Positions 18,238-50,126 of a stretch of DNA of 64,000 nucleotides are shown piece after piece. The stretch's first letter is position 1; every line of letters begins with the position of its first letter. The stretch spans positions 14,797,046-14,861,045 of the forward strand of contig NC_079219.1 in assembly GCF_029633865.1 (NCBI RefSeq), given 5' to 3'. The DNA is from Lampris incognitus. Taxonomy: Eukaryota; Chordata; Actinopteri; Lampriformes; Lampridae. The notes beneath the pieces were generated by a model. The model did no database searches. It saw only the letters and a program-made list of their open reading frames with translations, and was not told where the DNA came from. The translations under genes were made by a program, and so were the position numbers.

Positions 18238-19762
18238 ATGGATACTAGACGTGTGTGCTTGATGTTGTGCCTTCTTCTACTGGCGCACTCCACAACCCAG
18301 CAGACCTCTTCCAAAAGGAAAAATGAAAGGAAAGGTAGGATATACATAAAAACATCTATATGGACACAGAAGTATGAGCTGTCATAACTTGTTATCCCTT
18401 TGGAGGATACAAAAGCATCAAAATGAATGAGAAATCAAGTGTGGATGAATGGTTGTTTATATGGCTCCTTTCTCCTTGGTAGACAACAGTGCTGCGATTG
18501 AGGAGCTGAAGAAGCAGATTGAGGATATTGTGCAAGAGCTGCACTTGCTGAAAGAGCAGCAAGCCTTGCAAACAGGTATTGTACCGTCAGAGAAAGGACA
18601 CCGTCTATACTTAGCACAAAAAGTAAGGAAATGTGTGTTTGGTAGATGATTTCTTTGTGGTAACAATGCTTCTTGGCAATACATCTTATACTGTTGGAAA
18701 GCCTGTTTATTTCCCTTTTAAATGACGCCACATTTGTGAGGAACATGCATTTGTGGGATGAGCAGCAGAGCTGAGTATGTGGGTTGCGCCCATGAAAAAT
18801 TTGTCAGATCTTCTCTGCCAATGCCAAACAGTTTATTTTGCTGTTGCTGTTGACTCTTGTTTTGAGCTTCTGGTACCCCAGGTGCTGACGATCGGGTGCC
18901 TGATATAAGATTTATTGCCAAGAAGCATTGTTACAGCAAAGAAATAATCTACCAAACATAAATTTCCTTACTTTTTGGGCTAATTTTATATTTATTAAAT
19001 TGGTACACTGTAAGTATTAAGCTTTGCGCAATCATGAGGGACCCCAAAATGCCAAATTAAAAACAGAGACGGGCAATAGATGTTTGATGTTTCTTCCTGT
19101 GTTTGAGGTCCCACATGAGATCACTATCATACACTATTACAAAGTTTACTTGTATCCCCCCCCCACACACTGTAATACAAACAGTATGATGAATGGGGGT
19201 AGCAATTCGGTTGGGTGGGGGTTCTCATCCCAAATATTAAGCATCGAATGTTGGAACAGCACTTTGCGATTGGGAACCTAAACATGACACTGTGATGAAA
19301 GGGACAATTACTCACACTGACGCCTGTTAAAAAGCTAACTTTGCGTTAACCTCTCCCCCAGTTTGCTTGAGAGGCACAAAGATCCTCGGCAAGTGCTTCC
19401 TGGCTGATCCAGTGAAGAAGACCTATCATGTAGCCAACGAGGACTGCATCGCCAAGGGGGGCAGTCTGAGCACCCCAGTCAACGGAGACGAGAACGACCA
19501 GCTCAACAGTTATGTACGCCAGAGCATCGGCCCCGAAGAGCACATCTGGCTGGGAGTCAACGACATGGTGACTGATGGCCACTGGGTCGACCAGTCAGGG
19601 ACCAGTGTGCGCTTTAAAAACTGGGAGACAGAGATCACCCTGCAACCAGACGGAGGACGGAGCCAGAACTGTGCCATCCTCTCCACCACGGCCAACGGGA
19701 AGTGGTTTGACGAGAGCTGCCGTGCTGAAAAGGCCTCTGTTTGCGAATTTAATATTGTGTGA
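18238..19762 (+). CDS. clec3b: Tetranectin (C-type lectin domain family 3 member B)
   Basis: Three exons, 18238-18334, 18483-18575 and 19362-19762, total 591 nt (196 codons plus stop); human tetranectin is 202 residues with the same three-exon plan. Exon 1 gives a hydrophobic signal peptide (VCLMLCLLLLAHS) and a Lys/Arg-rich segment. Exon 2 is the trimerising coiled coil, ending in LLKEQQALQT. Exon 3 is the C-type lectin-like domain, with NEDCIAKGG, WLGVNDMVTDGHWVD, NWETEITLQPDGG, GKWFDESC and the C-terminus CEFNIV. The KNWETEIT and QPD segments correspond to the calcium and plasminogen-kringle-4 site of mammalian tetranectin. It is a secreted plasma/extracellular-matrix protein. NWETEIT separates it from CLEC3A. 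Its position next to CDCP1 and TMEM158 supports CLEC3B. Confidence 0.93.
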
Positions 19763-20235
19763 GGGAGGCCGTCGTCTTGCTCTGATGTTTCTAAAGCTCA
19801 TGTCAATAACATGTTTCTGAGCAGATTAATTTTCACATGAAAAGGTGAATACTGCACGCAAAAACAAATTCAACGTGTTGCGCAATTGAATGCTTTTGGG
19901 TGCATATGCGTAAGAGACCCTTGGGAGTGATGTCTTGCATTACCTAACCATTAGCTCACTGTTCCTTTGTCAGATGCAGATAATCTAAAACAGGCTGAAT
20001 TCACAATGCTGGTTGGGGATGGAGGATGTTACAGACTAAATCACTGGTACATGATGTTCTATATGCAAATGCTTTAGCTGGTGTGAAATATCTTTTCTAT
20101 GAGCAATGTACTGTACCAGCCTACAGTTTGCCTAGAAATCACCGATGGGTGGCTCGTCTCCAATACTTGTTGATTCTCTAAAGAAAAAGTCCTTTCCTGC
20201 TGTAATTCCTGCTGATCTGTTCAATAAAACCTGTC
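19763..20235 (+). other. CLEC3B 3' UTR with polyadenylation signal
   Basis: Non-coding sequence after the stop. An AATAAA at about 20223-20228 (TTCAATAAAACC) would end the transcript. Confidence 0.5.
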
Positions 20236-20579
20236 AACGAGAAGCAACTGTCGTGGGTTTGTTTAATCTGACATATTTGGAATTAGTTTTCTATTTTTGC
20301 TCAATGGACAGAAAGAAACAAATCAACCCTCGTTCATCAGTGTAACATAATACAATATATGCAATATGAAAATACATGTAAAGTAAAAAATATGAAATGT
20401 GATACAAGTTGTGGCATTGTAATTGTCAGATCCTTTGTGTGATTGCCATCCACCTGCTCTGTTCTCCTTGGTTTTCTATTTTCTGTTGTTTTGTTTATTT
20501 TACGATTGCTCCAGCAACTACCTCATTTAGCCACAGAGATCAATCAATTTTATCTTTTAATAACAACCATCAAACAGCC

Positions 20580-20667
20580 TTCTTTAATTAGGATACTTTG
20601 TCATTAGGATACTTTAATACTTTAGGATACTTTGTCAATTAGGAGACTTTAATTAGGATACTTAGTC
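20580..20667. repeat. Short tandem repeat of a TTAGGATACTTT unit
   Basis: The unit (T)TAGGATACTTTGTCA and shortened variants recur about five times, with spacing of 16-25 bases. It abuts the SINE fragment that follows. Confidence 0.6.
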
Positions 20668-20945
20668 ATTGTACATGCATGCAATGAAATGTATCCTCTG
20701 TGTTTAACCCAGACACACAATAGGGGCAGTGGGCAGCTGTAGTGCAGCACCCAGGGACCAACTCCAGTTCTTTTTAACGCCTTGGTCAGGGACACAGACA
20801 GGAGTATTAATCCTAACATGCATGTCTTTTTGATGGTAGGAGGAAACCCATGCAGACACGGGGGAGAACATGCAAACTCCACACAAAAAGGACCTGGAAT
20901 GTCCCGGAGTTCAAACCCAGGACCTTCTTGCTGTGAGGCAACAGT
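20668..20945 (-). repeat. Family-B SINE variant with a different 3' tail
   Basis: On the minus strand the tRNA-like head (GCCTCACAGCAAGAAGGTCC) and core (GGAGTTTGCATGTTCTCCCC) equal family B. The 3' part instead reads through a block complementary to GGGGCAGTGGGCAGCTG and ends near TACATGCATGCAATG. The same tail form is seen at 57340-57665. Confidence 0.7.
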
Positions 20946-21092
20946 GCTTTTTTTGTTTTTGTTGGCTCAAGCTCCCGCACCTGCCCTCCAGTCCCCACCA
21001 GGTTTAGTTTGTAGTTTATTTTGGAATGAAAAAAAAAATTTTTTTTAATTGTAGAATTCAGAAGACATCCATTAGTGTGTGTTTGTGTGTGT

Positions 21093-22153
21093 GTGTGTCC
21101 AGATGATGGTTGTCTCATCTGCAAACTTCAGGAGTTTAACAGATGGGTCACCTGAGGCAGAATCATTTGTGTAGAGGGAGCAGAGTAGAGGGGAGAACAC
21201 ACATCCCTGGGGGGCGCCAGTGCTGACGGTTCGGGTGCTGGATGTGATTTTCCCCAGCCGCTTCCCGTGTTTCAGGAAGTTTCTAACCCACTGACAGATG
21301 GGGGCTGGTATGGTGAGCTGGATTAGTTTGGAGTGGAGAATATCTGGGACGATGGTGTTGAACGCTGAGCTGAAGTCCACAAACAAGACCTTTGTGTGTC
21401 TCTCAGGAGTCAAGATGTTGGAGGATGTAGTGCAATCCCATGTTGACTGCGTCACCCACTGACCTGTTTGCTCGATAGAAAAACCACAAGGGGGTCGAGC
21501 AGAGGGCCTGTGATGTACTTCAGGTGGGCCAACATCAGTCTCTCAAAGGATTTCATGACCACAGACGTTAGGGCCTATGGTCATTTAATCCTGTGATACG
21601 GGGTTTCTTGAGGACTGGGATGATAGTGGAGCTCTTGAAGCAGGAGGGGACTTCACACAGCTCCAGTGATCTGTTTAAGATCATTGTGAAAATGGGGACC
21701 AGCCGGTCAGCACAGACTTTAAGACAGGAGAGTGACACGCCATCTGGGCAGTGGCGCCCCCAAGGGGGGGCCTGGGTGGCCACGGCCACCCTGATACTAT
21801 CCCTGGCCCCCCCCAGCCACGAGTCGCATATGCAGAATATGCTTCTATCTGATATTTTACATTAAGTGCTGTTCATTTAAATCAATAATGTATATTTTTC
21901 TTAACTCTCATATTGACAGTTTTCAACTAGCCTATACAGTATACTACAACAGCATCATAGAATTCCCGAAATTCAGTCATGGCTTTTGGTTTTGGTGTGA
22001 CCCCCCCAAGATTTTCAGCGGCCCCATTTGGCCACCCCTATGAAACATTTCTGGGGGCGCCACTGCATCTGGGCCCGGTGACTTGCTGGTCTTCTGCCTC
22101 TGGAAGGGCTGGTGCACGTCCTCGACACATATCCTGAGTGTGGGTGGAGGTTA
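21093..22153 (-). mobile_element. LINE reverse-transcriptase fragment, interrupted by a hAT element
   Basis: Minus-strand translation gives LFVDFSSAFNTIVPDILHSK, an active-site-side block with KLLKFADETTII (FADx motif), and upstream [20 protein letters not shown]. The RT is a non-LTR type of the CR1/L2/Rex group; the clade is not certain. It is the same family as 55069-56851. It is truncated at both ends, the 3' side ending at a GT-rich run near 21090, and it is split by the hAT element at 21749-22065. Confidence 0.8.
21749..22065. mobile_element. Short non-autonomous hAT element (MITE) in the LINE
   Basis: The 317-bp element has 14-bp terminal inverted repeats CAGTGGCGCCCCCA and a perfect 8-bp target duplication CATCTGGG at 21741-21748 and 22066-22073. 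Removing one duplication and the element restores the continuous LINE text GCCATCTGGGCCC seen at 56670-56682. There is no coding capacity. Confidence 0.93.
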
Positions 22154-22270
22154 ATGTTCTGTCTATTGTAAATATTCCATGTAAATTCAGCCGCATACTA
22201 CTTTATTGTATGTGAATATTCGCACTTGGTGTGGCAGTCATCAAATCTCGCCACAAGACAGCCCACGGGA

Positions 22271-22344
22271 GGCGCTGTGGCTTAGTTGGTTAAAGCGCCT
22301 GTCTAGTAAACAGGAGATCCTGGGTTCGAATCCCAGCAGTGCCT
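22271..22344 (+). tRNA. tRNA-Thr (anticodon AGU)
   Basis: A 74-base tRNA gene without intron. The acceptor stem GGCGCTG/CAGTGCC pairs with one G-U; the A box is TGGCTTAGTTGG, the anticodon AGT is at 22305-22307 in the loop CTAGTAA with stem CCTGT/ACAGG, and the T arm is GGGTTCGAATCCC. Discriminator T starts a TTTT run, a Pol III terminator. It is nearly identical to vertebrate tRNA-Thr-AGT, so it looks functional rather than SINE-derived. No other tRNA gene is close. Confidence 0.96.
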
Positions 22345-22349
22345 TTTCC

Positions 22350-22791
22350 GTCCTACCAAATATAGTATTTGTCCTGTAAACTGCATTAAGGTCACACACT
22401 TTCAACAAGACACTCTGTCCCCCATGAGATACTATAGAAGTCCATAACATAAGGTATTTGTTAATTACAAACGGGTGTGATGATGTGTGTGCTGTTTTGT
22501 TTTGTTTTTTTAAAGAAAATACCAGGAGGCATCAGGCTATACAGCTAACAAATTTAAAGATGCTGTTCAATTTGTTACTTCTAATATTATGATATGTGTA
22601 AAAGTGACTTGGTAGGCTTTGGCCTAACAGTTGTGATGTTGTCCATTAAAAGCCGAGAGATTTTTATCAACTGAACAAAAAGAACTTTAATGGTGCAGTA
22701 TTTTTAATACATCAAAGTGTCATGTATATGCATGCAGAGGAGGAGAATGTGTGCTGTTCTTCTTCTTCCTTTTTTTTTTAACTGGCACACC
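22350..22791. other. Intergenic DNA, probable 3' UTR of the orphan gene
   Basis: AT-rich, without recognised genes. Its right part would be the 3' UTR of the minus-strand gene at 22792-25074; no clear polyadenylation signal was settled on. Confidence 0.35.
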
Positions 22792-25074
22792 TTAATATTC
22801 ACCGACCCAGAAGATAGCTTTAAAAATGAAAATGATGATGGTATCGACGATGGGATGCGTCTTGCGTTTTTTTTGAAATGGGTTATAAGAGAAACGGCTC
22901 TTTCTGTTGCCATTCGGGGCTTCAGATGGCGGCGTTTCTTCACAGGTTCCGCTGGCGCTTTCATTGCTGGTGTCCTCGGCGCTTTCATTGCTGGAGACCT
23001 TGGCGCTTCCTCTCTTTAATTTGCCGCAGAAGTTCCTAAAGCGCTTTAGTAAACCGGGTTTCTTTGTTGGCAGTTCTGGCCTGGGAGGTTCCTCCATCTT
23101 CAGGTGCGTCTTTAGGGACCTCACCAAGGCATCATTGAAAGCGTTGTCCCCGGTCGCTGTGGTTGCCTGTATTACTCGGTCGGACCCAAATTCAGCCAAC
23201 AGATCCCTCAGCACCGCCTTGTACACTTCTTGGATATCATAATCCGACGATTGGGCAGCAGTGGAGTTGCTCAATTTCCCCATTGTCCTCTGAGACAGAT
23301 GTTTGACCATCTGATTAATGACGTCAAAGGTTTCAGTGCCTTGTTTGGAGTTGACCTGGCTGAGCAGCCTCATGAGAAGCAGATTAATAACGAGGCTCAG
23401 AGACTCACTGCTGCTCTCGGAGGAAGAGGACTCGCCTCTCACGTCCAACACAGGGGAAGTGGACTTAGTTATAATGTCAAACTCAGAGGGGGACTCGCTG
23501 GGATCATCAGCCATTGCAGCCTCCAGCCTCTCCAGCTTGTTAACCTTTCCTGCTGGCGGCGTTACCGACACCTCCTCCATGCTGCAGTGCTCATCCAAGC
23601 GGTCTTCAGATTGGGGAGTGGCCAGTTTTGCGTCTCGTTCAGGATTTTCACAGTTCAGAGATAACTCGTCATCAGTCCCCTGGCACTCCTGCATAATCCA
23701 GATTTCAGCCTGGTCTAGGAAGCGCTGTACGGCTCCCTCTGTTATAGCATAGAGTAACACAGACACGGCGCCTCCATCAGCATCTTCATTTTTCTGCAGT
23801 AGCTGCAAAATGGCGGTGTCCAACATGCTCATTCCAAACGGTATCACCGGACTCGGGTATTTCCTGTCAGTCACAATGAGCTTATGGATATTGTCAGTGA
23901 GGTCTGCAAAAAGGTTCTGCAGCTCACTGCTGGAGATTGGCATTGTTTTTCCAGGCCCATACCTTGGTTTCAGACATTCCTCCACCAGATCGGTGACAAG
24001 CTTCTCGACAGCCATTAATTTTTTATCAAAGGCTATCATAGCACGGGCTGCTTTGCACCTGGCTCGAAAGCTGCCACGGCAGAGTTCGGATGATTCGGGT
24101 ACAGCTTCCGGCACACTCATCAACTCCTCATGGGCTGTTTGTAGCCTGTGTGACTGGCTCAGGTAGGATATGGCCTCTGAAAGCCGCTCTGTTGAGCCCA
24201 CTATCACAGAGGCTTTATGTTGGCCAGAGGTCTGTATATGGTGTTTGGCTTCCACCTGAGTGCATTCTCTGAGGGTCTCCCCCAACCAACGAAAATGCTG
24301 CTTAGCAAACAGCAGAAAGTTCTTCTTTGATTTCCCCTTCAATATAGAGCGCTGGGACTCGGCCTCTACCACGAAACTCTCCGGCTTTCTGTTGCTAGGA
24401 GCAGACAGCGAGGACTCAGCGGATGCAGATATGCCTCTTTTTTTAGAGCGCTTCGTTGACTTTCCAATGTACATGCTCAGGAAGGCACCCATCGCAGTGG
24501 CCATTTTGCGGCGCATGGATGGGCACGTGATGCACCCGCTCACATATATAACCGGTACATCTTTCGCTGTTTCCGGTCTCTGCCAGACTTCGGAAATGAT
24601 CGAGTTAACTCTGTCAGCTACTGCTTTCGCAACCAGTTTACGTACCTCGACAGACAACTCTTTAAATTTCTCATCCAGCTGCCATTTATCAGACGGAGCC
24701 ATAGACACAGGCGTGAAAAGACTGCGCAGGCTCTCCTCGACACTTTCTTCTGTAACAGTGAGATAATTCATCTTAGATGTCGTATCCTGGGAACTTCCTG
24801 ATGCAGCGAAGCTCCTTGACAGGTTAAAAAAAGGGGCATTCCGATGCACCCGAATGAAGCCCTGGACCTTAGGCAGGATGTTCTCCACGATCGCTGTGGC
24901 AGCTCCCTGGACAATGTCCATGCACAAGCCCGCTAAGTGCGCCAACACTTCAGGGCTTGTTGTTTGTGATGCCACGGTCCTCCTTTGTCCTGGAGTCAGG
25001 TTGTCAATGAACTGTTGGATGATCTGATGGAGTTCATCCAAGTTGACATGAGTGAGGTTTACAGTAATTGCCAT
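22792..25074 (-). CDS. Intronless 760-residue protein of unknown function
   Basis: A single uninterrupted frame runs from ATG at 25074 (context CGAAATGG, good Kozak) to TAG. In-frame sequence continues upstream only to a TTG, so this ATG is chosen. I do not recognise the family. Visible features: an all-helical N-terminal third (LDELHQIIQQFIDNLT; ELSVEVRKLVAKAVADRVNS), a basic stretch around residues 205-215 (KSTKRSKKRG), a middle helical region with VEKLVTDLVEECLKPRYG, an acidic/Ser-rich linker (GESSSSESSSESLSLVIN), and a basic segment (KKPGLLKRFRNFCGKLKRG). The C-terminus has a hydrophobic 17-residue tail (IVDTIIIFIFKAIFWV) that could be a tail anchor. Helical modules containing a V-x-E-x-V/L pattern recur, suggesting internal repeats. 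The long open frame and codon regularity argue for a real gene or recent retrogene. It sits between CLEC3B and CDCP1, where mammals have no counterpart I know. Confidence 0.7.
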   Translation of the reverse strand: MAITVNLTHVNLDELHQIIQQFIDNLTPGQRRTVASQTTSPEVLAHLAGLCMDIVQGAATAIVENILPKVQGFIRVHRNAPFFNLSRSFAASGSSQDTTSKMNYLTVTEESVEESLRSLFTPVSMAPSDKWQLDEKFKELSVEVRKLVAKAVADRVNSIISEVWQRPETAKDVPVIYVSGCITCPSMRRKMATAMGAFLSMYIGKSTKRSKKRGISASAESSLSAPSNRKPESFVVEAESQRSILKGKSKKNFLLFAKQHFRWLGETLRECTQVEAKHHIQTSGQHKASVIVGSTERLSEAISYLSQSHRLQTAHEELMSVPEAVPESSELCRGSFRARCKAARAMIAFDKKLMAVEKLVTDLVEECLKPRYGPGKTMPISSSELQNLFADLTDNIHKLIVTDRKYPSPVIPFGMSMLDTAILQLLQKNEDADGGAVSVLLYAITEGAVQRFLDQAEIWIMQECQGTDDELSLNCENPERDAKLATPQSEDRLDEHCSMEEVSVTPPAGKVNKLERLEAAMADDPSESPSEFDIITKSTSPVLDVRGESSSSESSSESLSLVINLLLMRLLSQVNSKQGTETFDVINQMVKHLSQRTMGKLSNSTAAQSSDYDIQEVYKAVLRDLLAEFGSDRVIQATTATGDNAFNDALVRSLKTHLKMEEPPRPELPTKKPGLLKRFRNFCGKLKRGSAKVSSNESAEDTSNESASGTCEETPPSEAPNGNRKSRFSYNPFQKKRKTHPIVDTIIIFIFKAIFWVGEY

Positions 25075-25242
25075 TTCGTAGTAAATAGAAATGCTCTTAA
25101 ACTCTATAACGTTGCTCTGCAAATGTCGAGTGCTGCTTTCTCAAGGAAGTCTTGGAGCAAACTGAGGGCCAGTGTCAATCACATCGCCTCTTATGCTGTT
25201 CTAGAACCATACAACGTCATCGAACTAAAGAATGGAACCTCA

Positions 25243-25360
25243 ATTAAAGGGACAATACACCTATTTTCCCAAGTGGAAAAATACCAGTTAAAGAGACAGG
25301 ACACCTATTTTTCCAAGTGGAAAAATACCAGTTAAAGAGACAGGACACCTATTTTTCAAA
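25243..25360. repeat. Tandem repeat of 44 bp upstream of the orphan gene
   Basis: About 2.6 copies of a unit containing CACCTATTTTTCCAAGTGG and AAAATACCAGTTAAAGAGAC lie about 170 bases 5' of the orphan start codon, in what could be its promoter or 5' UTR. Confidence 0.8.
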
Positions 25361-25543
25361 GCGGATAATAAGTGTCAGTCGGGGTAGCTAGCTTAATTAG
25401 TCTAGTGCATTTGTTTAGCAGAAGTCGGGATTCAGGTATGTGTCATGGAGTCATTCATTAACAATTTAGCAATTTACAGGTGAATATTCTCTCTCCGTCT
25501 CGCTAGCTCTTTCACTAACAGACACACACACACACACACAAAC

Positions 25544-25580
<37 letters not shown>

Positions 25581-26240
25581 CAAATACAAAAAAGGCTTTA
25601 GGGAAACCACAGATTGCCACGTTTTTAAAGATGTATTTTTCCACCATTTTATTTTTTTCAACCATGTTTTGAAAAGTTTTATTTTCATCATCTTATTTTT
25701 GGTCATAGAAATTATAATGGGATGTTTATCATCAGGCAGTCGCCATGAAATTACTTTTTTTTATCTCCTGATCCTGCCACTTGCCGAGCCGACAGCATTG
25801 CAGCTATTCTAGTATCAAACTGGGATCTGTTTTTATTGTTTGTCATTTGGCCGCGTGTTTCTCATTTATTGTATTCAGGTATTTACAGGATATTGTCATG
25901 GATGGCTGAGAGTCCATTAAGCATAATTAAATCCCTTCAGTCATTCTGGCAGTTCCACTTGAAGGACATTGGAAGCCTTTTTTTATATGCACTGGAAAAT
26001 ATTGTGTACTCAAGGCAATTGGTAAATCATTTTATGGAAGGAATTGCAGATTAGTTTCTTTCATGTTGTTGGTGTATATGTAACAGGGATAAGAACTACA
26101 TGTTATAGACTTTTTGCAGTTCGGCTAAATATATTAAATTACTGTTCTTTATATATTGAGTTTCTCTTGCGCTCCCCAATATTCAAACCTGGCATCATTC
26201 ACTCAGCTCCCCCTGGTGGTGACGGTTGTGGTCAAGCGCA
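25361..26240. other. Gene-poor stretch with CA repeat
   Basis: Contains an interrupted CA repeat at 25521-25579. The rest is AT-rich with no exon or repeat family recognised. Confidence 0.4.
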
Positions 26241-26254
26241 TTACGTAGTTTTTT

Positions 26255-26445
26255 TTTCAATCCCCCCTCCCCCCCTTTTTCTCCCCAATTATATCTGGCC
26301 AATTACCCCGCTGTTTCTGAGCCGTCCCGGTCGCTGCTCCACCCCCTCTCTCCCGATTTGGGGGGCGCCCCGACTAACCACAGGTGGCGCTAGTGCAGCA
26401 ACCAGGACAAATACTTACATCCGACCCCCCCCCCCCCCGCAGTCG
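26255..26445 (-). repeat. Family-A SINE, copy 4, internally deleted
   Basis: Plus-strand text CCCCAATTATATCTGGCCAA and GGTGGCGCTAGTGCAGCAAC matches two separate parts of the minus-strand copy at 37690-38152. The middle of the element is missing. Confidence 0.6.
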
Positions 26446-26500
26446 TAGGGCTCTTAAATGGGCCGTGTGGAAGCCACTGACTACGTAGCTTTCCGTTGTG

Positions 26501-26832
26501 CAGGGGTGCTCAACCAATCGATCGCGAGCGACCAGTTGCTCGCGGGATGATTGCTAGTCGATCGCGAGATGATTTTGAAAAACGGAGTAAGATCTTGAAA
26601 AAATAAGTAAATAAACAAAATCCGCAAACTGCCGATTTTATTTATCTTGTTTGGCCTCGAACCTTACTCACCATTAAGAGGCAATGTCTGCATTAGCCTT
26701 GTATTAGTCAGAGCCAACGTCAATCAAGATATTATTGGCGAATTATCTCACACGCAACCTCTGACGTATGAAGGCGTAACCTTTTTGTTTTTTTCCATGT
26801 CCCCTGCCGTATTGTTTATAATTGTTTATATG

Positions 26833-26895
<63 letters not shown>

Positions 26896-27108
26896 ATGTT
26901 CTCTTTGTAATGTTTTGAATTGGATTTAAAAAAAGTTTTGTTTAAAAAAGTGGAAAAGAGGAGACGAGAGTTGAGACTAACGTTAACAAGATCGACTTCT
27001 CTTTAATTTTCTTTTGAGTGTTCGGAGATGACAAACAACAAATATAGCAGAAGCCAAAAGATCGAAAACGTATCATTTCCACAATGAATGGGAGGAAGAT
27101 TATTTTTT
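26501..27108 (+). mobile_element. 5' part of an autonomous hAT element (ZBED5/SCAND3-like transposase)
   Basis: Starts with a hAT-like end CAGGGGTGCTCAACC, followed by the GATCGCGAG palindromic subterminal repeats (26518-26572). Near 27045-27105 a plus-strand frame reads AKRSKTYHFHNEWEEDYFF, the usual start of the transposase zinc-finger region in this group. The rest of the transposase is missing: a SINE follows at 27108. A TA/TG microsatellite (26823-26892) interrupts the 5' region. Confidence 0.6.
26823..26892. repeat. TA/TG microsatellite
   Basis: About ten TA units run directly into about 21 TG units. Confidence 0.9.
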
Positions 27109-27109
27109 C

Positions 27110-27308
27110 GTTCATTCATTCATTCATTCATCCATCCATTCATTCATTATCCAAAGCGCTTATCCTGCTCTCAGTGTCGTGAGGATGCTGTAGCCTATCC
27201 CAGCAGTCATTGGGCGGCAGGTGGGGAGACACCCTGGACAGGCCGCCAGTCCGTCACAGGGTGGACACACACACGCACATTCACACCCAGGGACAATTGT
27301 TGGGCGTA
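27110..27308 (-). repeat. Family-B SINE, 3' half
   Basis: Plus-strand text ATTCATTATCC, GCTTATCCTGCTCTCAG and TCATTGGGCGGCAGG, then a short CACACA run and ACCCAGGGACAATT, gives the 3' half and part of the core. The tRNA head is absent. Confidence 0.75.
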
Positions 27309-27387
27309 ATTTCATCACCAATTGCCAACATTATGATAATTAAAAAGTGGACTTTAAAATTTGATTGATTTGATAATATAATAATTT

Positions 27388-27457
<70 letters not shown>

Positions 27458-27598
27458 GGCCCTGCGATGGCCTGGCGGCCTGTCCAGGGCGCCTCCCTGC
27501 CTGCCGCCCAATGACTGCTGAGATAGGCTCCAGCCTCCCTGCGACCCTGACAGCAGGATAAGCAGTTTGGATAATGAATGGATGGATGGATGGAGTCT
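27388..27598 (+). repeat. Family-B SINE, 3' half with long TG expansion, opposite strand
   Basis: A TG run of about 32 units (27390-27455) leads into GGCCTGTCCAGGGCG, GCCCAATGACTGCTGAG and a (GGAT)n end. It is oriented opposite to 27110-27308, so two half copies face each other across 80 bases. Confidence 0.75.
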
Positions 27599-27679
27599 TA
27601 ACCTACGAGTCCCCCCCCCAAGTGGTATCCGTAGCTTTTGTTTACACCACCTAAAAATATTTTTTGTTCAGAAAGAGGT

Positions 27680-27685
27680 GTGTAT

Positions 27686-27733
<48 letters not shown>
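27680..27733. repeat. TG microsatellite
   Basis: About 26 TG units. Confidence 0.9.
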
Positions 27734-28416
27734 ATACACACAGGGTGTTGTGATGCGTCTAGTGCAGCAGTGTGTAGTTGGAGGGAAGGTGCATGTGTTC
27801 TTCCAACCCGCTTGTGTCCTTCCTGCCCTTAGCTTGCTGCCGCTGGCTAGCCTTTGTGGCGAATAGGGAAGCATCCTAGCGTGTAAGCCTTCCCATGCCA
27901 GTACATAGCCTCTCCTTCACCAAGACTCCTGCCAGGCCTCCCCGTGGCCACACGTGGTAACTGGGGTCTTGCGGCCCCAGGCTAACTTGGCAGGGGATCT
28001 CGGAGCAGCAGTGGGCCCCAGAGATATGGTGTGCAGGCCCACCCTGGTGGACATGCCCTGGCACCTATCAACCACTGCCCCGCTGCCTTGTGGGTGAGTC
28101 TGGGGAGACATAAGGCTAAGGGAGCTTACCTCAACAGAAAAGCAAGCTGTGGCGGTACGCTTCGAGGCGGTTTCCGAAAAACTGGATTTCCGGCAGCCCC
28201 CTGTAGTTGTGTGGAGGTGCCGGTCGTCTAGGGATCCCCCTTGCCATCGGAACCATCTCCTCTACAATCAAGTCATGTGGCGTTGGGAGAAGCGCACCCC
28301 CCATGCCACTTTAAAAACCATCTCTGCGCAGGTATCTTCTGCTATCTGAGTCCTCAAAGGACCCACAAATAGAAGAAGATGGTCATCATCGGGCACGATG
28401 GACAACCAGCAAGCAA

Positions 28417-33764: not shown

Positions 33765-36700
33765 TCAGTCTCCTCCCTCCGGGTCCATCCTTGGTCCTAG
33801 CACTGCGCTCCTCGTAAGATCTCCACAGTCTTCCTCCTCACTGTTGCTCTCAGTGCAATATAAGTCATTTTTCACAAAGCACTGGGCTTGGCTTGGAGGT
33901 CTATTTGGAAGAGGAGGGCCCTGGTGAGACGGCGGCACAAACGGCCGGTACACACCGACCTCCGGACGCTCAGAAGCCATGCCCTGCGAGTGTGGTGGTT
34001 CTGTGGGGCCCGTGAATGGCCGATACGTGTCAGCCTCTCCATATACTCCCATCTCTACCCCTTTTCTTAAAAGGTGCGTGTAAACCAGCGAGTCCTCAAT
34101 GGAGGCGTAGACATGGTCATCCTCCTCAGGTGATTTTGGGAGGCCGTTGTGTCCTGGCAGGAAGCTTGTACCGTTAGGATTGTAGATAGACACCTGATGA
34201 TTCATCTGTCTCTTCTTCTTCCTGTTCAGCAGAAAAGATGAAGTGATAAAAAAAGACAGTGGGATACTCATATCAGAGACATACATCTGTTTGGAGTTAA
34301 GTTTGGGTATGAAGAATTCCAAGCAGGAAATGACTCATTTGAAGTCAGACAAAGACACAAGATCAACAAAATCTAATGTATGCAATGTATCTTATTCATG
34401 TATTACTGTAAACGATGCTAGGAATTTTCCATTTTTAACAAGTAGTCATTAATTGTACAATAAAGGGATAAGAATGCTAAAAAAAAGTAAGCATGCAGCC
34501 ACACGGATGTACATAAAATAAACCCCAATAATAATAATAATGATAATGTGACAACCAGACACAAGAAGACGCACTCACCTGATCACCACACAGACCACCC
34601 CCAATGCAATGAAAATGATGAGCAACAGTGCAGCCACCACGCTCAGAACAGCAATCAGGAGCAGGTCTAGTTATTTATAAAAAAGAGACAAAATAATTAG
34701 AATCATTTCAGCGTTTGAAGGAATAATGCGCTCATTCTTGTAACATCACTGTTAAAGCTAAAATAATACATACAGATATCTAAGTCTTGAACTTTTTTGT
34801 TGTTTGCCCCAAGGCTAACAGGAGCAAGAGGGCTTTAGTGGTGGATGAATAAGAGGAGAAAACCATGCGTGTTAACATTTTCTTACTCTTGTTCTTATGC
34901 AAAGTGATCTGCGAGACGACAGTGAAGTGTCCTCTTTCGGGCATACAGTTGGACATGTTCAGATAGAAGCTCTTGGAGATTGTGATCTCACTGTCAGCTT
35001 CCTCGTCCTCTCTGCGGCTGTACATCTCCTCCAGGGAGCCCAGGCTCTGCACCCTGATGTTGGTGTGGCGGTTGTTACATTTGGGCTGAGTGATGTTGGT
35101 GAACATCAAGTGAGCCTCCTGCTTGGCCGGCACAGAGATGATCCAAGAGACTGTGGAGTAGGACTTCATCCCTTCTGGCCATCCAGGAGTAGCTAAAACG
35201 GTCTGGACTCCTTTCTCAGGAGCTACATTGAATATGTACCTCTCTAAATCAAGAAATGGGCAAACAAAGAGGAAAGGAATTAAAGGGAAACAACCATGAT
35301 TTTCAACATTATCAATATATTTGCCATGCCATTTTTATTTTTCCATATTCAAATACCCATATATCCTCTATACTACTACTATAGATAAGATCTATTTATT
35401 AATTAAGTTATATGCAATATACAACCATCGGCTTGCTATTATGTGCAATATACAACAACTGTGCAGTAACTGTGGATAACTGTACCCTGTGCAATAACTG
35501 AACATATGATCATGCTGCTGCATCTTTTTTTTTTTCAATGTAACCTCTGCTATATTTCTTTTATACCAATGCTCTTGATCCACCCTGCTTTTATATATAA
35601 ATATACATCTCTTTAGTCTATTTTATTTTTAGGCACTTCAGTTTAGTCTAGTTCTTTATATTTTCTATATTCTCTATAGTTTTGCTTTATATTCTTGCTA
35701 TTGTTGTGTGTATTTTTGATATTGTGTGCCGTTGGATTATGCAAGCTGTAATGACGCTTTAATTACCCTCGGGATCAATAAAGTATCTGTCTACCTATCT
35801 ATATGCTGCAGGGATAACAGTTAGTTAACAGGTGTAATACTGAGCAGTCTTCTGTGTCATTGAAATGCTGCTGAAATTGTGCAGAAAAGCGAATCAAATT
35901 CATGTATTGTCCGCCAGTAATGTCACTGGTGGACACTTTTCTGCACAATTGGGCAGCTACTGAGAAGCACGCAGAAGACTGCTTATTATTATGGCTGTCA
36001 ATGAGTTTTATCCCTACAGCTAGGGCTTGCTGATATTGACAAAATCAAATAAAACTTCGACAATAAGATATCTTATCAATAAGGCATTCACAAACAAGAA
36101 AATTTTGAAAAATTATCTTTAGTAATGTAGATATGATGGCCAAGCACGTAGAGGCATTCATTGTTCATTTCATTCAACTAAAACAGCCTGATAAGTTCAG
36201 AAAATTGTATTGGTTACTGTAATGCAGCCTTTAAGACCAGGAAATGACAACACAACTTATATCACGACAACCAAAATCCTACATAATGTCTCACGTCAAG
36301 ATATCCGCATATCAATATAATGCCCAGCACAACCTGCGGAGATAACATTGAAAATCGCGATTAAGTGTTCATTTATGACGTGTGACCTAACACACCTTCT
36401 ACATTTTAAGTCACTTGATACCTCTGATCTCCCCTCTGAAAACAGCATGTAGCAGCAATTTGGAAGTTCGCAGCACTCCATCCCCCACGCCGGAGGCGGT
36501 AACGGAGACATTGGCGTGAATCTGGATGCTCTTTATGGCTCCCTCAGGGCAGAACTGGCCGAGAGAGGTGCCGTCATCCTCAACCACTTGGAGAATGATG
36601 CTGTCATTGCACGGCTGCCCGGGCGGTGACTGTCTGAGAGGGTTGCTGGGGGACAGTAGCTCCACAGCTCCATGTGGAGGAGGCAGGAGAGTCCAGGTCA

Positions 36701-38462
36701 CGTTACTCAGTGGGGCAGGAAGGCAACTGGGCAGCGAAGGCACTGCCAAAGAGACCTTCGGACAGCGGTTAAGCTGTTGGCAAGCTACACCAAAAAATGG
36801 AAAATGATTACAAGAAATGACAACAAACGTCATTTGTGACCTGAAAGGTACAGTGAGTAAAGACTGAATTCAACTTTTTTTTTTAACTAAATTGTTGGAA
36901 ATAGATGAATTAAAAGTGGTCAACATATAACATCATGTTGTGACAGGAGTGTGATATGGGTATGACATGAGTGGTAAACCACACAATGAGTTGCGTGACT
37001 TTGTGAAGCACTGTATGAATACCCATACCCTGAAGGAATGATGACTCAACGTGCTAGTTTACAATACCTATAATTCTCCTGGCTGTCACCCGTACATCTT
37101 CAGGGGAGCAGTCCTGGAATGACAGCTGAGTAATGCTTTTAGATGGAAGGGTGATTCTCTCCTTGGTATTGAAGTTCATTTTCATCTCGCACTCAGAGCC
37201 CGGTCTGGCCTCGATGTAAAGAGAGAGCCTCTCCTCTTTTCTCAGGTCCACTTCACACAACACTACAGAATACATCACACTAACATGAGCATGTCTTCAA
37301 ACAAAACCTGCCTCTGTCTTTATCTCTCTTTGTCTTACTCAGTAGTGTACCATTCCAGTCATGACGCAATGGTGAAGCAATCTCAGAATTCCCCTTAAAG
37401 CCAATGAGGTCCTCAAATGAAGGCCACGGGGCCCACTTTTTAAACCAGGCCATCATGCTCACCTAAGTCTATGGCTATCACTAAACTAAGTCCAGGCGGA
37501 CAAAATCCAAGTATATACCTGTCTAACAACCTTGCATTCTTTCTGTAATGTTGTGTTGGTATCTTAGTCATTTAGGTCAAGCTCCAATTCAGAACAACCT
37601 GGAATGGGCAGGTATGTTTAGAGACTTGCTCAGGAACACTCCCTAGAAGAATATGGGACTTCCCTTCTAACCTAATTAAATAGATGAAATTCTTCTTTTT
37701 TTTGTGGATCCCCCCCCCCCCTCCCTTTTTTTCTCCCAAATTGTACTTGGCCAATTACCCCAATCCTCCAAGCTGTCCCGGTCGTTGCTCCACTCCCTCT
37801 GCCGATCTGGGGCAGGCTGCAGATTACCACATGCTTCCTCCGATACATGTGGAGTCGCCAGCCGCTTCTTTTCACCTGACAGTGAGGAGTTTTGCCAGGG
37901 GGATGTAGCACATAGGAGGATCACGCTATTCCCCCCAGTCCCCGCCCCCCCCCCAACAGGCGCCCTGACCAACGAGAGGAGGCGCTAGTGCAGCGACCAG
38001 GACACATATCCACATCCAGCTTCCCACCCACAGACATGGCCAACTGTGTCTGTAGAGACGCTCGACCAAGCCGGAGGTAACACGGATTCGAACCAGCAAT
38101 CCCCATGTTGGTAGGCAATGGAATAGACCACCACGCCACCGAGACGCCCTGATATAATTATTATAATCAAATACATAAAAGATATATCACTATGACAAAA
38201 GCAACAGTGTTCAGCATTAATTTTGTTGATAAAAATTGTGATGGAAAATGTGTGTCATTGAACTGGGGGGGGGGGACAATAACTAAATCAAAATTCTCCT
38301 TTCTAAACACAAAGGTGAAATGTAAAGTTCCATCTGTCCATCCATTGTCTGAACCACTTATCCTCCTCTCAGGGTCGCAGGGATGCTAGAGCATATCCCA
38401 GCAGTCATTGGGCGGCAGGCGGGGAGACACCCTGGACAGACCGCCAGGCCATCACATGGCTG

Positions 38463-38549
<87 letters not shown>

Positions 38550-41500
38550 CCTAGGGACAATTTAGTACGGCCGATTCACCTTACCTACATGTCTTTGGAC
38601 TGTGGGAGGAAACCGGAGCACCCGGAGGAAACCCACGCAGACTTGGGGAGAACATGCAAACTCCACACAGAGGACGACCCGAGATGACCCACCAAGGTTG
38701 GACTACCCCGGGGCTCGAACCCAGGACCTTCTTGCTGTGAGGCGACCGTGCTAACCACTGTGCCACCGTGCCGCCAAATGTGAAGTTATTTTCTCATTTT
38801 TAATCACAGAAACAAGGTCAATGTTGAACTTTTTCAGTCATGCCAGGGTGTAGCATAATAAGGTGCGTGGTTTACAAACCTGGGCGACTTCTCTGGACAG
38901 CGGCGACCTTAAAGTGTACGGAGAGTCCGGCTGTATTATCACGGGCCCTGTCCATTTCACAGTTCCTTAGGGTCAGGGAGAAGTTGCCTTGGATCTGGGT
39001 TGACTGGGTGACGGACAGCCCCCGCACCGATGCCTCTCTTCCTCTCCGGTGGTACTCCACAGCAGTGCTCTTCTTCAGACAACGGGGCTGCGTGTGGTCC
39101 AAGAAATCAATGGTTGCATTGTATTTGGCTGGAGTCTGAAACTCCCACTCCATCTGGTCATCATCAGGAAAACTGCCCGGGTAGTTTGGAGAAAGCAACT
39201 CTGTAGATGAGCTCCTCTCTGGTAAAATCAGTTTCATTTTGGCAAGGGCTAAGAGAGAATACAAGTACATGAGAATGTCAGTGGGCTGCGTCATTTATCT
39301 TTAAAATCTACCCTTTAATGATCTCTGCAATCTGTTGGACCTCATCGCCTCTGTATTTTCACCTCACAGAAATCATTTAAAGCAACTCACATTTGATTTC
39401 CTCTCCAACCGATACACCAAACCGGGCACCTTGTAACTTCTGTTTGGCTGGAACTTGTACAGAAAAGCTGCCCTGCTTTAGCACCTGAGCCCCATGAAAG
39501 GAGCCAGTTCTGCAGTATGTCCCAATAGCCACCTTCCCGGTGGCCTGAAGGGCCTGGAGGCTGTAGGTGTGTTTATCTGGACAGGTTTCTGAGGGATTAA
39601 TCTGTCTCAGACCTGTGCTGGTGAAGTCTAGTTGAAATGCTTGCTGTGCAGAGGCCTTAAGGTTCCAGGTGAATGTGCGGTTGAAATCCGTCAAAGGAGT
39701 GGAGCCGTACTCAGTCTGGATGATATCTCCATTGCAGGACTTTGCGGTACACTCTGAGGAAGAGGGATAATTCTGTTCACACACAGCCTATAAGTAAATT
39801 CGACACTTACAAAGAGTCACCACTGTGACCAGGTTATATAAAGATGTCGTGAAATCAGATCACCATTATTTACACACCTTTCATTTAATTAGTGTGAATG
39901 GAAAACTCCTACCTATACTTCGAAGAATTTCCACACTGAATACATCCTGAGGTCTGGGGCACCTGAACTCCACTGACACAGTACCAGTGTCTCTTAATAA
40001 GGCAGATGCATCACATAGTTGTGACCTTCCTGATCCAGTGCACACATTGCACACTGACCCCTTGACATTTTTACTGCTGATGTGAAAGGTGGTGCCCCTG
40101 TCAGGGGTGATGGTCAGCTTCTGTGTCCCTGGATAAAATAAATACAGGCAATATACCAAGAAGGGATGAACGCAGGTCAAAATAATACGTAGTAATCCAA
40201 GAAGGTTAAATCAGTTCATCTGGATCAACCGCTTCAGTCTAAACTGACTGCAGGTATCCCCACCATTATAAACAATATAGTACCATAACAATCGAAACCA
40301 ATGATCGGTTTCATATGCAAATATGGGTATGACCATTAACTAGAGTTTCAATAGCCATGTGTGCTATTCACAGAGAATTTGGGAATGTTTGCAATCACAG
40401 CATTGTAAGATGGTGACAGATGTACTCTTAGCCCCCCCCCCCCTTGGTTCAGGGATGATCATTCCCTCTTAACATGTAGATGGCCTCTCTGACTCTCTGT
40501 TCAAACCATCATTCCTCCCTATCACGGATGTGCACATCCTCATCTATGAAAGAGTGGCCACTGGCCTGTAGATGAATGTAGACTTAGGAGTCCTGGCCTG
40601 ACGTGTTAGCTCTCCTGTGTTGTGCCATTCTCTTGGCCAGCATCTGTTTAGTCACAGCAATCCTCCTGGCACTTAACAGCATACACTATATTGCTCCGTT
40701 TGTGCCAGGGGGCCCGATCCTTGCGGTGGACCAACTTCTGGCGCAGTGTATTTTGGGATTTGAAAGCAACTGAGACACAGGTTTTGGAAAATATGTGTCT
40801 CAGCTTTTCCCACACTCCCGCCACATACGGGATCACCACTGGTTTACGCTTAGACAGCTGTTGTCCTTCTCCTCTCTTCGATTGGCTGGTGCACTGTTTG
40901 GGCATCTTCCTGGCTTTGACAAATGCCCAGTTAGGATAGCCACACAGTGACTGTAGCTTCCTACAGTCACTCCTCTGTTAGGAATCTTGGAGTGATTTTT
41001 GACAGCTCTTTTAACTTTGACAAACAAATAAGCTCAGTAGTCAAAACAAGTTTTTTTTCCAATTACGACTTCTGGGGAAAAGTAAAGGCCTATCTCCCTC
41101 CAAATGACCTTGAAAGGGTAATTCATGCATTTATTACCTCTCATTTGGATTATTGTAATTCATTGTATGTTGGCGTAGCTCAGTCGTTGCTTCGTCGCCT
41201 GCAGCTTGTACAAAATGCAGCTGCTCGCCTGCTGACAGGAAAGAAGCGACGTGATCACATAACGCTTGTACTGGCCTCCCTTCATTGGCCTCCGGTCTGT
41301 TTTAGGATCCAGTTTAAGATTTTATTATTTGTTTTCAAGTCTTTAAATGGGCTGGCACCATCTTATTTATCTGAGCTGATACATCATCATACACCAGTCA
41401 GAGCACTCAGGTCAGCAAACCAGATGCTCTTACATGTTCCCAGATCCAGGCTTAAGAATAGGGGCGACAGAGCCTTTGCAGTGGCTGCGCCTGATCTCTG

Positions 41501-48224: not shown

Positions 48225-48923
48225 TTATCTCGGCCGCCTCTGCTCCATCCCATTAGGCAGAAATCCTGCAATGATAGGGACCGGCCATATGAGAGCAGCA
48301 ACACTCCACACAATGATGACCAAAGTCATGAAACAAGCCACAAGTGTCGACTCGATGGGTTTCCGGTTGAGCCTCCAACTTTTGTCCCCCTTCAACTCGT
48401 CAAGGCTGAAGTCGACACAGCAGAAACTGATGGGGTCTCCCGTCTGCTGGCCCCTCGACCTGCCTTGGCCGAACCTCCTGTACCGGGAGAGCCCGCAGCC
48501 AACACACAGCCTCAACTCCTGCTGACCGCTGTTGACTCCGAGGTGCTCGATGATGACGGGCGAGATCGCCCTGTTGAAGGAAGCGGAGAAGAAAGCCCTG
48601 CCGTGGTTGTTGGTGGTGTAGAGGAGCACGTCGCACTGGAAGCCGAAGTTGCTGTCCCAGCGCGCCACCAGCGAGGTGGGCAAGAGTCTATGGACGCTGA
48701 CGTTGCACTGCGCGAGAGTCTGGAGCGACGCGTCGGACGAGGCTTCGCCCTCGTCCACGGATCTCTTCGAATACCGCACGTCCACCTCCAGGTTGGCCAG
48801 GAAGCGGTTGGTGGAGTTGATGGGCGGCAGGAGCAAGTCCTCGTCGCTCCAGCCATGGCATCGCTGGAGAAGTCCGGCCACCGTGGTCAGAGCCAAGAGG
48901 AGAGTCGGGGAGTTGTTCAGCAT
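48225..48923 (-). CDS. tmem158: TMEM158 (Ras-induced senescence protein 1), single exon
   Basis: An intronless frame from ATG at 48923 (context GCCATGC) to a stop at 48225 gives 232 residues; human TMEM158 is about 300, the difference being Ala/Pro-rich inserts. Residues 1-22 are a signal peptide (LLLALTTVAGLLQRCHG). The ectodomain has conserved cysteines: CNVSVHRLLPTSLVARW, GFQCDVLLYTTNNHGRAFF, LRLCVGCG and FCCVDFSLDELKGD. The C-terminal part (WRLNRKPIESTLVACFMTLV then IVWSVAALIWPVPIIAGFLP) is nearly identical to mammals and contains the membrane helix. The protein ends EQRRPR, lacking the mammalian Ala-rich tail. Sequence upstream of the ATG stays open to a GTG but lacks an ATG. The function is poorly known: induced by Ras and linked to senescence, and a proposed receptor-like membrane protein. 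Confidence 0.95.
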   Translation of the reverse strand: MLNNSPTLLLALTTVAGLLQRCHGWSDEDLLLPPINSTNRFLANLEVDVRYSKRSVDEGEASSDASLQTLAQCNVSVHRLLPTSLVARWDSNFGFQCDVLLYTTNNHGRAFFSASFNRAISPVIIEHLGVNSGQQELRLCVGCGLSRYRRFGQGRSRGQQTGDPISFCCVDFSLDELKGDKSWRLNRKPIESTLVACFMTLVIIVWSVAALIWPVPIIAGFLPNGMEQRRPR

Positions 48924-50126
48924 GGCACAGGGCGCGTCTCTCCCGTTCGCATGGTGGGTTTTCCGAGGGGGATGGTAGGCGATGCACACCGCGTATGGTG
49001 TTTGAAAATACCCGTCACCTCGCCAGTGAATAATAAAAAAAGAAAGAAAGAAAGAAAAATCAGCCACTATGTCCGGTCGGAGAGATTAAAAATCCCCCCC
49101 CCCCACCTTATCCAGCCGTTATGGAAACGTCAGATGCCAATCATACGCGCACTCCCCCCTCCCCTCCCTCGGTGTTTTTCCTCGCTACAAAGTAACAGAC
49201 TTGTTTTTCCCACATTCTCGCTTCTCGGGAGATGGAGGTTGTAGGTACCATTCCCTCTGCCGTTGACTTCAGGAGCATCGCTGTGCATCACCTCCCCCCT
49301 CCCTTCCCTTCCCTCCCCTCCTCTCCGCTCCGCTTGTCTATTCAGGTGTGATGAACGCTCGGAGTGGTGGGCAGTGATGAGGCACCTGCGCGGAGACACG
49401 CCAGTTTCCCCCTACTGGGTGCTGCGCAGCTCCACTTTCCAAGGCTCAGGTCGAGGTTCCCAGACAAACAAAGATATTTTGTCATTTTAGGAAATGTCCA
49501 ATCCGGATGCAGCACACAACATGCTCATCTCATACTGGGTCTGTTTTTTTTGGGGGGGGGGTGTAGTTACATTTGAGCTTTGATCAAGACATTTTTTTCA
49601 AGCTCAAGTTGAACAGCATTACAGTAAGTGACAAACAGGAATTTTAAAATGCAATAAAAAAAGCATGGGGGGTAGAAGGGGGCTTTGGCGAGTTCCTTAA
49701 AGTCGCAGTCACAGAGACGGTTGATCACAGTAACCTAACAAAAAAATCCTTTCTGATAGGCCACAGTGAATTATGAGTCCCCAGTTGGGAATATATAAGG
49801 AGGCCGTTTTGGATGGAGCTGTACAGGGAGTTGCGGTACCCCTCGCGCCTGACCCTTTAAGCATCTTAATGTATTTCTTCACAATTGTTTCTGTCCAGCA
49901 GATTCATGATTGGCTCTTCAGCACCACACACACACACCCCCCCATCACCCACCACCCAGATTTAAATTTTAACCAAATGATTTTATTGCATAAACAATAT
50001 GATGGAGAGATAATTAAAATGGCGATTTGTCAAATTCCAGTGGCACACGATAGACCTTACCGAGATTCCAAATACTTTTGGAAAATATAAAACATGACCT
50101 TCCACCCTAATTCTTTTTTCTTACAT
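48924..50126. other. TMEM158 upstream region
   Basis: Contains an AAAG-rich run (49034-49057), C/T-rich tracts (49150-49330) and a G-run near 49552. No TATA box or other element was identified with confidence; a TATATAAG at about 49793 is the only candidate on the plus strand and has no gene behind it. Confidence 0.35.

Follow-up and report, generated by a model that had tools for sequence, protein, structure and literature searches.

In European sea bass, single-exon genes have been inferred to arise by retrotranscription followed by tandem duplications, and that survey reports 74 comparisons of single-exon genes with their parents in which Ka/Ks was above 1 (PMC8207432). On this account, a single-exon gene that was retrocopied and then duplicated is of a kind established in fish. 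The gene described here, found in a 64-kb stretch of the Lampris incognitus genome (the whole of which is called the window), resembles the sea bass retrogenes in being single-exon with multi-exon paralogues; it differs in that its parent family is domain-less as far as recognised and is itself amplified, in that the copy in the window appears to have moved with its flanks as DNA, and in that its dN/dS is below 1. With lineage-amplified fish immune families, represented by a TRIM subset (PMC2657112), it shares duplication-driven expansion and fast-evolving protein parts; unlike those families, RING, B-box, B30.2, NACHT and GTPase domains are absent among the Pfam matches here. From comparisons of sequence, this is very probably a functional protein-coding gene of retrogene origin, one of many in a large and fast-evolving family.

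A sequence-only reading of the window had singled out one long open frame with a protein-like composition, which was confirmed as follows.

22792..25074, minus strand: intronless 760-codon gene of an amplified family (frame, paralogues, frame retention)

The frame runs from an ATG at 25074 to a stop codon at 22794-22792, encodes 760 amino acids and measures 782 codons from stop to stop. When the 64-kb window was simulated 20 times with an order-1 Markov model, stop-free runs reached at most 147-232 codons, and 20 simulations that kept the composition of the ORF itself gave maxima of 190-281 codons; the frame is not explained by chance, as had been argued. Codon-position bias is seen (G is 0.315 at position 1 and 0.163 at position 2), and the start context is the good Kozak match that had been described (GAAATGG, with G at -3 and +4). 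The characterization of the DNA as AT-rich applies to the surroundings (the window is ~44% GC) and not to the ORF, which is 50% GC. The ORF lies, as proposed, between the tetranectin (CLEC3B) lectin exon at 19331-19759 (+; tetranectin match, E 2e-55) and the CDCP1 CUB exons at 36414-36869 (-) and 39380-39787 (-), both of which match Pfam CUB_CDCP1_2.

In Pfam, NCBIfam, PHROGs and PDB the window protein has no match that clears a curated cut-off or reaches E 0.001. A collection of 5.8 billion proteins was queried with the window protein (7994 candidates scored, none accepted at E 0.001), with an 11-member family alignment termed A1 (7994 scored, none accepted at E 10), and with a distant paralogue (7996 scored, none accepted at E 1), and in viral and prokaryote contigs no relative was found at the sensitivity of the searches used. 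These results agree with the earlier statement that no known motif is present. Among the papers listed by term searches of the literature, which do not reach sequence, none describes the family in its title or abstract opening, and the family is apparently undescribed; the databases searched did not include fish proteomes, in which it may well be annotated as 'uncharacterized' under a variety of names. Ribosome-inactivating proteins matched weakly in PDB, with a best E of 0.066, and were rejected. AlphaFold2 gave a pLDDT of 39.8 for the single sequence and 44.4 for residues 545-690, which makes the models unusable, predicted helices included. From paralogue comparison, composition and substitution patterns, the coding region was divided into the following parts.

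24838..25074, minus strand: residues 1-79, the part that exons 1 and 2 encode in paralogues with introns (paralogue comparison)
24580..24762, minus strand: residues 105-165, the most consistently constrained helical block (regional dN/dS)
23680..24039, minus strand: residues 346-465, helical block, partly constrained (regional dN/dS)
23425..23679, minus strand: residues 466-550, Ser/acidic linker, unconstrained (regional dN/dS, composition)
23080..23406, minus strand: residues 557-665, C-terminal helical block (alignment, regional dN/dS)
22954..23008, minus strand: 24-bp tandem repeat, in frame, encoding a Ser/Glu-rich octapeptide and having one more unit than its counterpart in L021, the nearest relative
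22795..22974, minus strand: residues 701-760, basic cluster and hydrophobic C-terminus, a putative membrane anchor (regional dN/dS, hydropathy)

The Ser/acidic linker, basic patch and hydrophobic C-terminus named in the earlier reading are all present: residues 466-556 hold 16 Ser with a net charge of -14, residues 720-742 have a net charge of +7, and the C-terminal hydropathy peak is 1.65 on the 19-residue Kyte-Doolittle scale, a value close to the usual threshold. A positive stretch plus a short hydrophobic segment ends 10 of the 11 members compared (the exception is the truncated L014; the match is loose in L023), and six of the 11 carry a Cys within the last six residues, L014 not being counted; the window protein and L021 have no Cys there, yet their C-termini are the most hydrophobic. 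The sequence of the putative anchor segment is not conserved among members. Because charged and hydrophobic C-termini, and Cys, recur among members, we infer a putative C-terminal membrane tether, read from hydropathy alone. Residues 619-630 (KAVLRDLLAEFG in the window) are a strongly conserved string of the A1 alignment. The suggestion of repeated helical modules is not supported within this protein: when its own segments were compared as profiles (20 pairs), 19 pairs had a probability of 1% or less and the only match was of a segment with a longer segment containing it, so that internal repeat homology between the helical blocks was rejected.

The gene had been called an orphan, and a check for paralogues overturned this. 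Searches of the same genome gave at least 97 matching stretches with the window protein (59 of 151 candidates scored) and at least 119 with the distant paralogue (65 of 216 candidates scored), which merge at 6 kb into at least 38 and at least 57 loci, respectively, and at least 93 loci combined; these counts are lower bounds, the merge having taken one or more starts per locus and not every stretch. Copies occur on 12 contigs (C numbers below), mostly in arrays, and many loci are truncated or broken. The genome search located these arrays.

C2, 43.355-43.474 Mb: family array
C1, 146.305-146.411 Mb: family array
C21, 43.078-43.176 Mb: family array
C15, 14.045-14.132 Mb: family array with seven 728-codon frames

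Truncated members of a second subfamily, in which open frames of 312-340 codons prevail, make up large arrays at C18:0.35-2.35 Mb and C30:0-1.7 Mb. These two arrays are alike, with stops inside the matched stretches, and the end of C18 and C30 may be related. The nearest relative of the window gene, L021, lies at C12:18.04 Mb, 3.2 Mb from the window, and is intact with 758 codons and 86% identity. At L034 (C21:43094500-43104400), a 1938-codon frame contains an in-frame 227-residue unit matching residues 320-551 in at least five copies with 98.7-99.6% DNA identity; the block of residues 346-465 lies in this tandemly amplified unit. Counting the window, 11 intronless loci were found, seven open and four broken, and the C-terminal sequence differs in four of the open C2 copies (L022, L023, L026 and L027). 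Downstream of the C2 and C5 intronless copies is a Pro/Ser-repeat ORF starting MDPADLLSLPY (L023:7041-8057(+), L029:2113-3471(-), also L022 and L024-L028), which has no match in the window; the C5 ORF matches Pfam Cornifin, likely due to its repeat composition.

In five paralogues (L031, L032, L038, L039 and L014) exons 1, 2 and 3 are separated by 128-348 and 488-506 bp, with exons 1 and 2 encoding roughly the first 90 residues; ten further loci resemble the window in that these parts are contiguous to within 1-32 nt. When L039 is spliced at GTAAGT...TAG and GTAAGT...AAG (introns of 347 and 502 bp), one open frame results, and the spliced protein aligns with the window protein through both junctions. 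The first donor is GTAAGT in nine of nine loci examined and the second is GTAAGT or GTGAGT in eight of nine; with strict acceptor patterns, the first acceptor was found in four of the nine and the second in three. Both introns are precisely absent from the window, where the frame is continuous. A tree rooted on L041/L042 was built from 23 of 31 frames, leaving out both L025 pieces, L024, L034, L037, the first L029 piece and two extra downstream L028 frames. All 10 intronless rows fall into a single clade (support 100/99), which needs one change of state, and the 10 rows labelled intron-bearing comprise five with all three exons apart, three with exons 1-2 apart and two with exons 2-3 apart. 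The introns look ancestral because the outgroup C15 loci have exon-like pieces upstream of the main frame, although the matches are weak (E 1e-4 to 0.007); one piece sits at the matching QW..M site. With sister copies that have three exons and both introns precisely missing here, the economical reading, that the clade traces to a single retrocopy of a spliced mRNA that would have lost both introns, is supported. For the founding retrocopy, neither a poly-A tail nor a target-site duplication was recognised, short of a systematic search; in the window copy a run of 10 A starts 12 nt past the stop.

The surroundings of the ORF belong to a larger duplicated block, with the following features.

22068..26238, no strand assigned: segmentally duplicated unit common to C12:18.04 Mb (L021), with both flanks and tRNA-Thr (alignment)
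25241..25368, minus strand: 2.8 copies of a 44-bp tandem repeat that has a TTCCACTTGGAA core and lies upstream of the ORF (repeat listing, paralogue alignment)
22270-22345, plus strand: tRNA-Thr(AGT) gene on the 3' side of the ORF, part of the duplicated block and shared by L021 and L030

Over 26238..22068 the window and L021 align at 86% over 3649 bp and 89% over 592 bp (~4.2 kb), with common flanks of ~1.1 kb upstream and 0.7 kb downstream. The broken C15 copy, L030, shares 25086..22235 with the tRNA and does not share the upstream flank. The flanks held in common with L021 on both sides point to DNA duplication, not a fresh retrocopy, as the step by which the window copy reached the CLEC3B-CDCP1 interval. 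The retrocopying put forward in the earlier reading thus applies to the clade, with its two precisely lost introns, and not to the arrival of the window copy itself. The copy number of the 44-bp repeat varies among paralogues. C2 intronless copies match the ORF at ~79% and the upstream repeat at ~90%, a gap that is only suggestive because repeats give local alignments several tries, and the C5 copy matches the window from 25335 on, covering part of the repeat; the idea of the repeat as a candidate shared promoter element is only suggestive. Matching tRNA-like copies of the tRNA-Thr(AGT) gene cluster at C12:39.6-39.8 Mb.

The window and L021 differ at 160 of 2259 coding sites (7.1%) and at 113 of 1016 (11.1%), 16 of 150 (10.7%) and 42 of 493 (8.5%) sites in flank stretches. 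Their coding sequences are separated by two indels, of 18 and 24 nt, and their flanks by 18 indels, 12 of which are not multiples of three. No frameshift is seen in the coding alignment vs 16.5 expected from the flank rate (conservatively 11.0, with only the eight shortest counted), an expectation inflated because some of the flank is low-complexity, and no stop is seen vs 4.9 expected in a neutral simulation (2000 runs, P 0.0075). Synonymous differences number 48.5 over 511.7 sites and replacement differences 111.5 over 1741.3 sites, for a dN/dS of 0.66 (NG86; Fisher p 0.024), and the replacement count is not significantly lower than the 117.7 of the neutral simulation (P 0.12). The window frame is kept by selection, and the amino-acid constraint on the window/L021 pair alone is modest.

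Across the family, dN/dS was 0.32-0.79 in all 12 pairs chosen by hand, which are not independent, with Fisher p < 0.05 in eight of them; values below 1 are what the sequence-only reading had proposed to look for, and its refuting sign, a neutral ratio, did not appear in these pairs. In a wider set dN/dS was 0.23-0.82 in 59 of 59 pairs, under a filter that drops locally unalike columns and so favours low values; frames in both sets run stop to stop and a few codons before the start may be non-coding. Regional dN/dS was taken from three comparisons. Low values mark residues 41-80 (0.33 and 0.20; the third comparison has only 2 codons), 105-165 (0.23, 0.46, 0.32), 401-465 (0.27, 0.43, 0.69) and 641-665 (0, 0.24, 0.41), with residues 346-400 at 0.17, 0.92 and 0.65. 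Residues 1-40 are not constrained (1.42 and 0.86). Values for residues 466-550 (1.71, 1.12, 0.94) and 701-760 (1.29, 1.41, 1.22), and also for residues 206-245, are 0.91 or more wherever computable, and residues 1-40, 81-104, 291-345 and 581-640 (the last at 0.63, 1.14 and 0.48) exceed 1 in at least one comparison. Constraint is patchy, and the linkers and C-terminus evolve freely.

It is very improbable that the frame belongs to a copy in decay or without function that chance has left open. The high dN/dS of 0.66, the replacement count that simulation does not find significantly reduced and the four broken loci among 11 would suit such a copy, but neither the window nor L021 has a frameshift or stop where 11-17 frameshifts and 4.9 stops are expected, and both frames are open although the two copies have diverged by ~7% in the coding part and by 9-11% in the flanks. 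It is likewise very unlikely that the family is the protein of a mobile element or virus, or such a protein recently domesticated, with the copies being those of the element. Spread over 12 contigs, an intronless form that arose via RNA and a nearby LINE reverse-transcriptase-like fragment (21075-21542, by eye) speak for such an origin; against this, the Pfam matches of the window protein and of the other 10 A1 members include no transposon or viral domain (reverse transcriptase, integrase, transposase and Gag all being absent), the window protein has no PHROGs or NCBIfam match, and peptide-pattern scans of viral contigs found no relative. The relatives' introns are at fixed places, multiplication was largely in arrays and, for the window and L021, with flanks, and of the repeats listed for 20000-28000, which comprise 16 direct families and 25 out of 214 inverted pairs, none bounds the ORF as a terminal repeat. 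No match to a known transposon protein was found, a check that the earlier reading had named. It is also very improbable that introns were gained in the other clade and the window form is ancestral with no retrocopy: the tree, taken as unrooted, does not tell which way the state changed, and the exon matches in the outgroup are weak, but this course needs the gain of two introns with GT-AG ends, and the outgroup exon-like pieces are separated, one of them at the matching QW..M site. In the preferred reading of a retrogene-derived family member, the ancestral gene would have had at least three exons; one of its mRNAs would have been reverse-transcribed and inserted, losing both introns, and the intronless founder would then have spread through DNA duplication and given rise to two groups of copies, one on C12/C15 that includes the window and one on C2/C5/C18, with the window copy coming to the CLEC3B-CDCP1 interval within the ~4.2-kb duplicated block.

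The role of the protein can be proposed only tentatively, as a helical scaffold tethered to membrane by its basic-hydrophobic C-terminus, in a family that copy number has diversified like those engaged in host defence or germline conflict. An intracellular all-helical scaffold would bind partners through its conserved blocks (above all 41-80, 105-165, 401-465 and 641-665), the fast-evolving Ser/acidic linkers would space these blocks, the basic and hydrophobic C-terminus would tether the protein to a membrane, and the Cys at the C-terminus of several relatives is possibly acylated; selection would act on copy number and on the linkers and tail, in the manner of host-defence or germline-conflict families. 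A comparably tentative alternative is that the family acts in the germ line, in copy-number or meiotic conflict, and not in defence or as a membrane scaffold. Tandem amplification (the seven 728-codon C15 frames and the arrays of truncated members on C18 and C30), the internal amplification of one module into a 1938-codon frame and fast-evolving tails would fit germ-line action, but defence families fit the same features. Descent from an NF-YC-type histone-fold protein (residues 105-165) is highly improbable. The family profile at about residues 100-160 aligns weakly to NF-YC (PDB, E 0.26), and Pfam CBFD_NFYB_HMF gives E 0.004 in L031 and 0.043 in L039, but the scores of 17.8 and 14.5, respectively, compare with a gathering threshold of 21.4, and the weak match occurs in two of seven paralogues tested and not in the window protein. 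The lead is weak because a plainly spurious match of L031 to a Pfam bilin reductase (E 0.0043, below the cut-off) is equally strong. Under NF-YC descent, the rest of the histone-fold protein would have been stripped away, and the family would now be a multi-copy competitor in chromatin or transcription, gene-drive-like or in dosage conflict, spread by one retrocopy and repeated array amplification as copies gained a transmission or expression advantage; annotation would pass it over, as no domain model recognises it.

In a vertebrate genome at least 93 loci match the family, many of which hold long open frames, and Pfam, NCBIfam, PHROGs and PDB fail to recognise it. With intron-bearing and intronless clades side by side, birth by retrocopy and then amplification would be traceable within one genome, and should expression turn out to occur in gonads or upon infection, the family would offer a ready case for copy-number-driven adaptation.

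Farther out in the window are a FEZ-domain exon and a piece with a SEP-domain match under the cut-off. Adjoining CDCP1 at 48228-49085 (-) is an intronless frame that is TMEM158-like by eye and has no Pfam match. A Tc3-type transposase helix-turn-helix is located at 54285-54593 (+) and a reverse-transcriptase fragment at 55938-56450 (-). A 161-nt inverted repeat with 85% complementary arms (27129-27289 / 27432-27592) is probably a dispersed repeat, since pieces of it also occur near L014 and L015.
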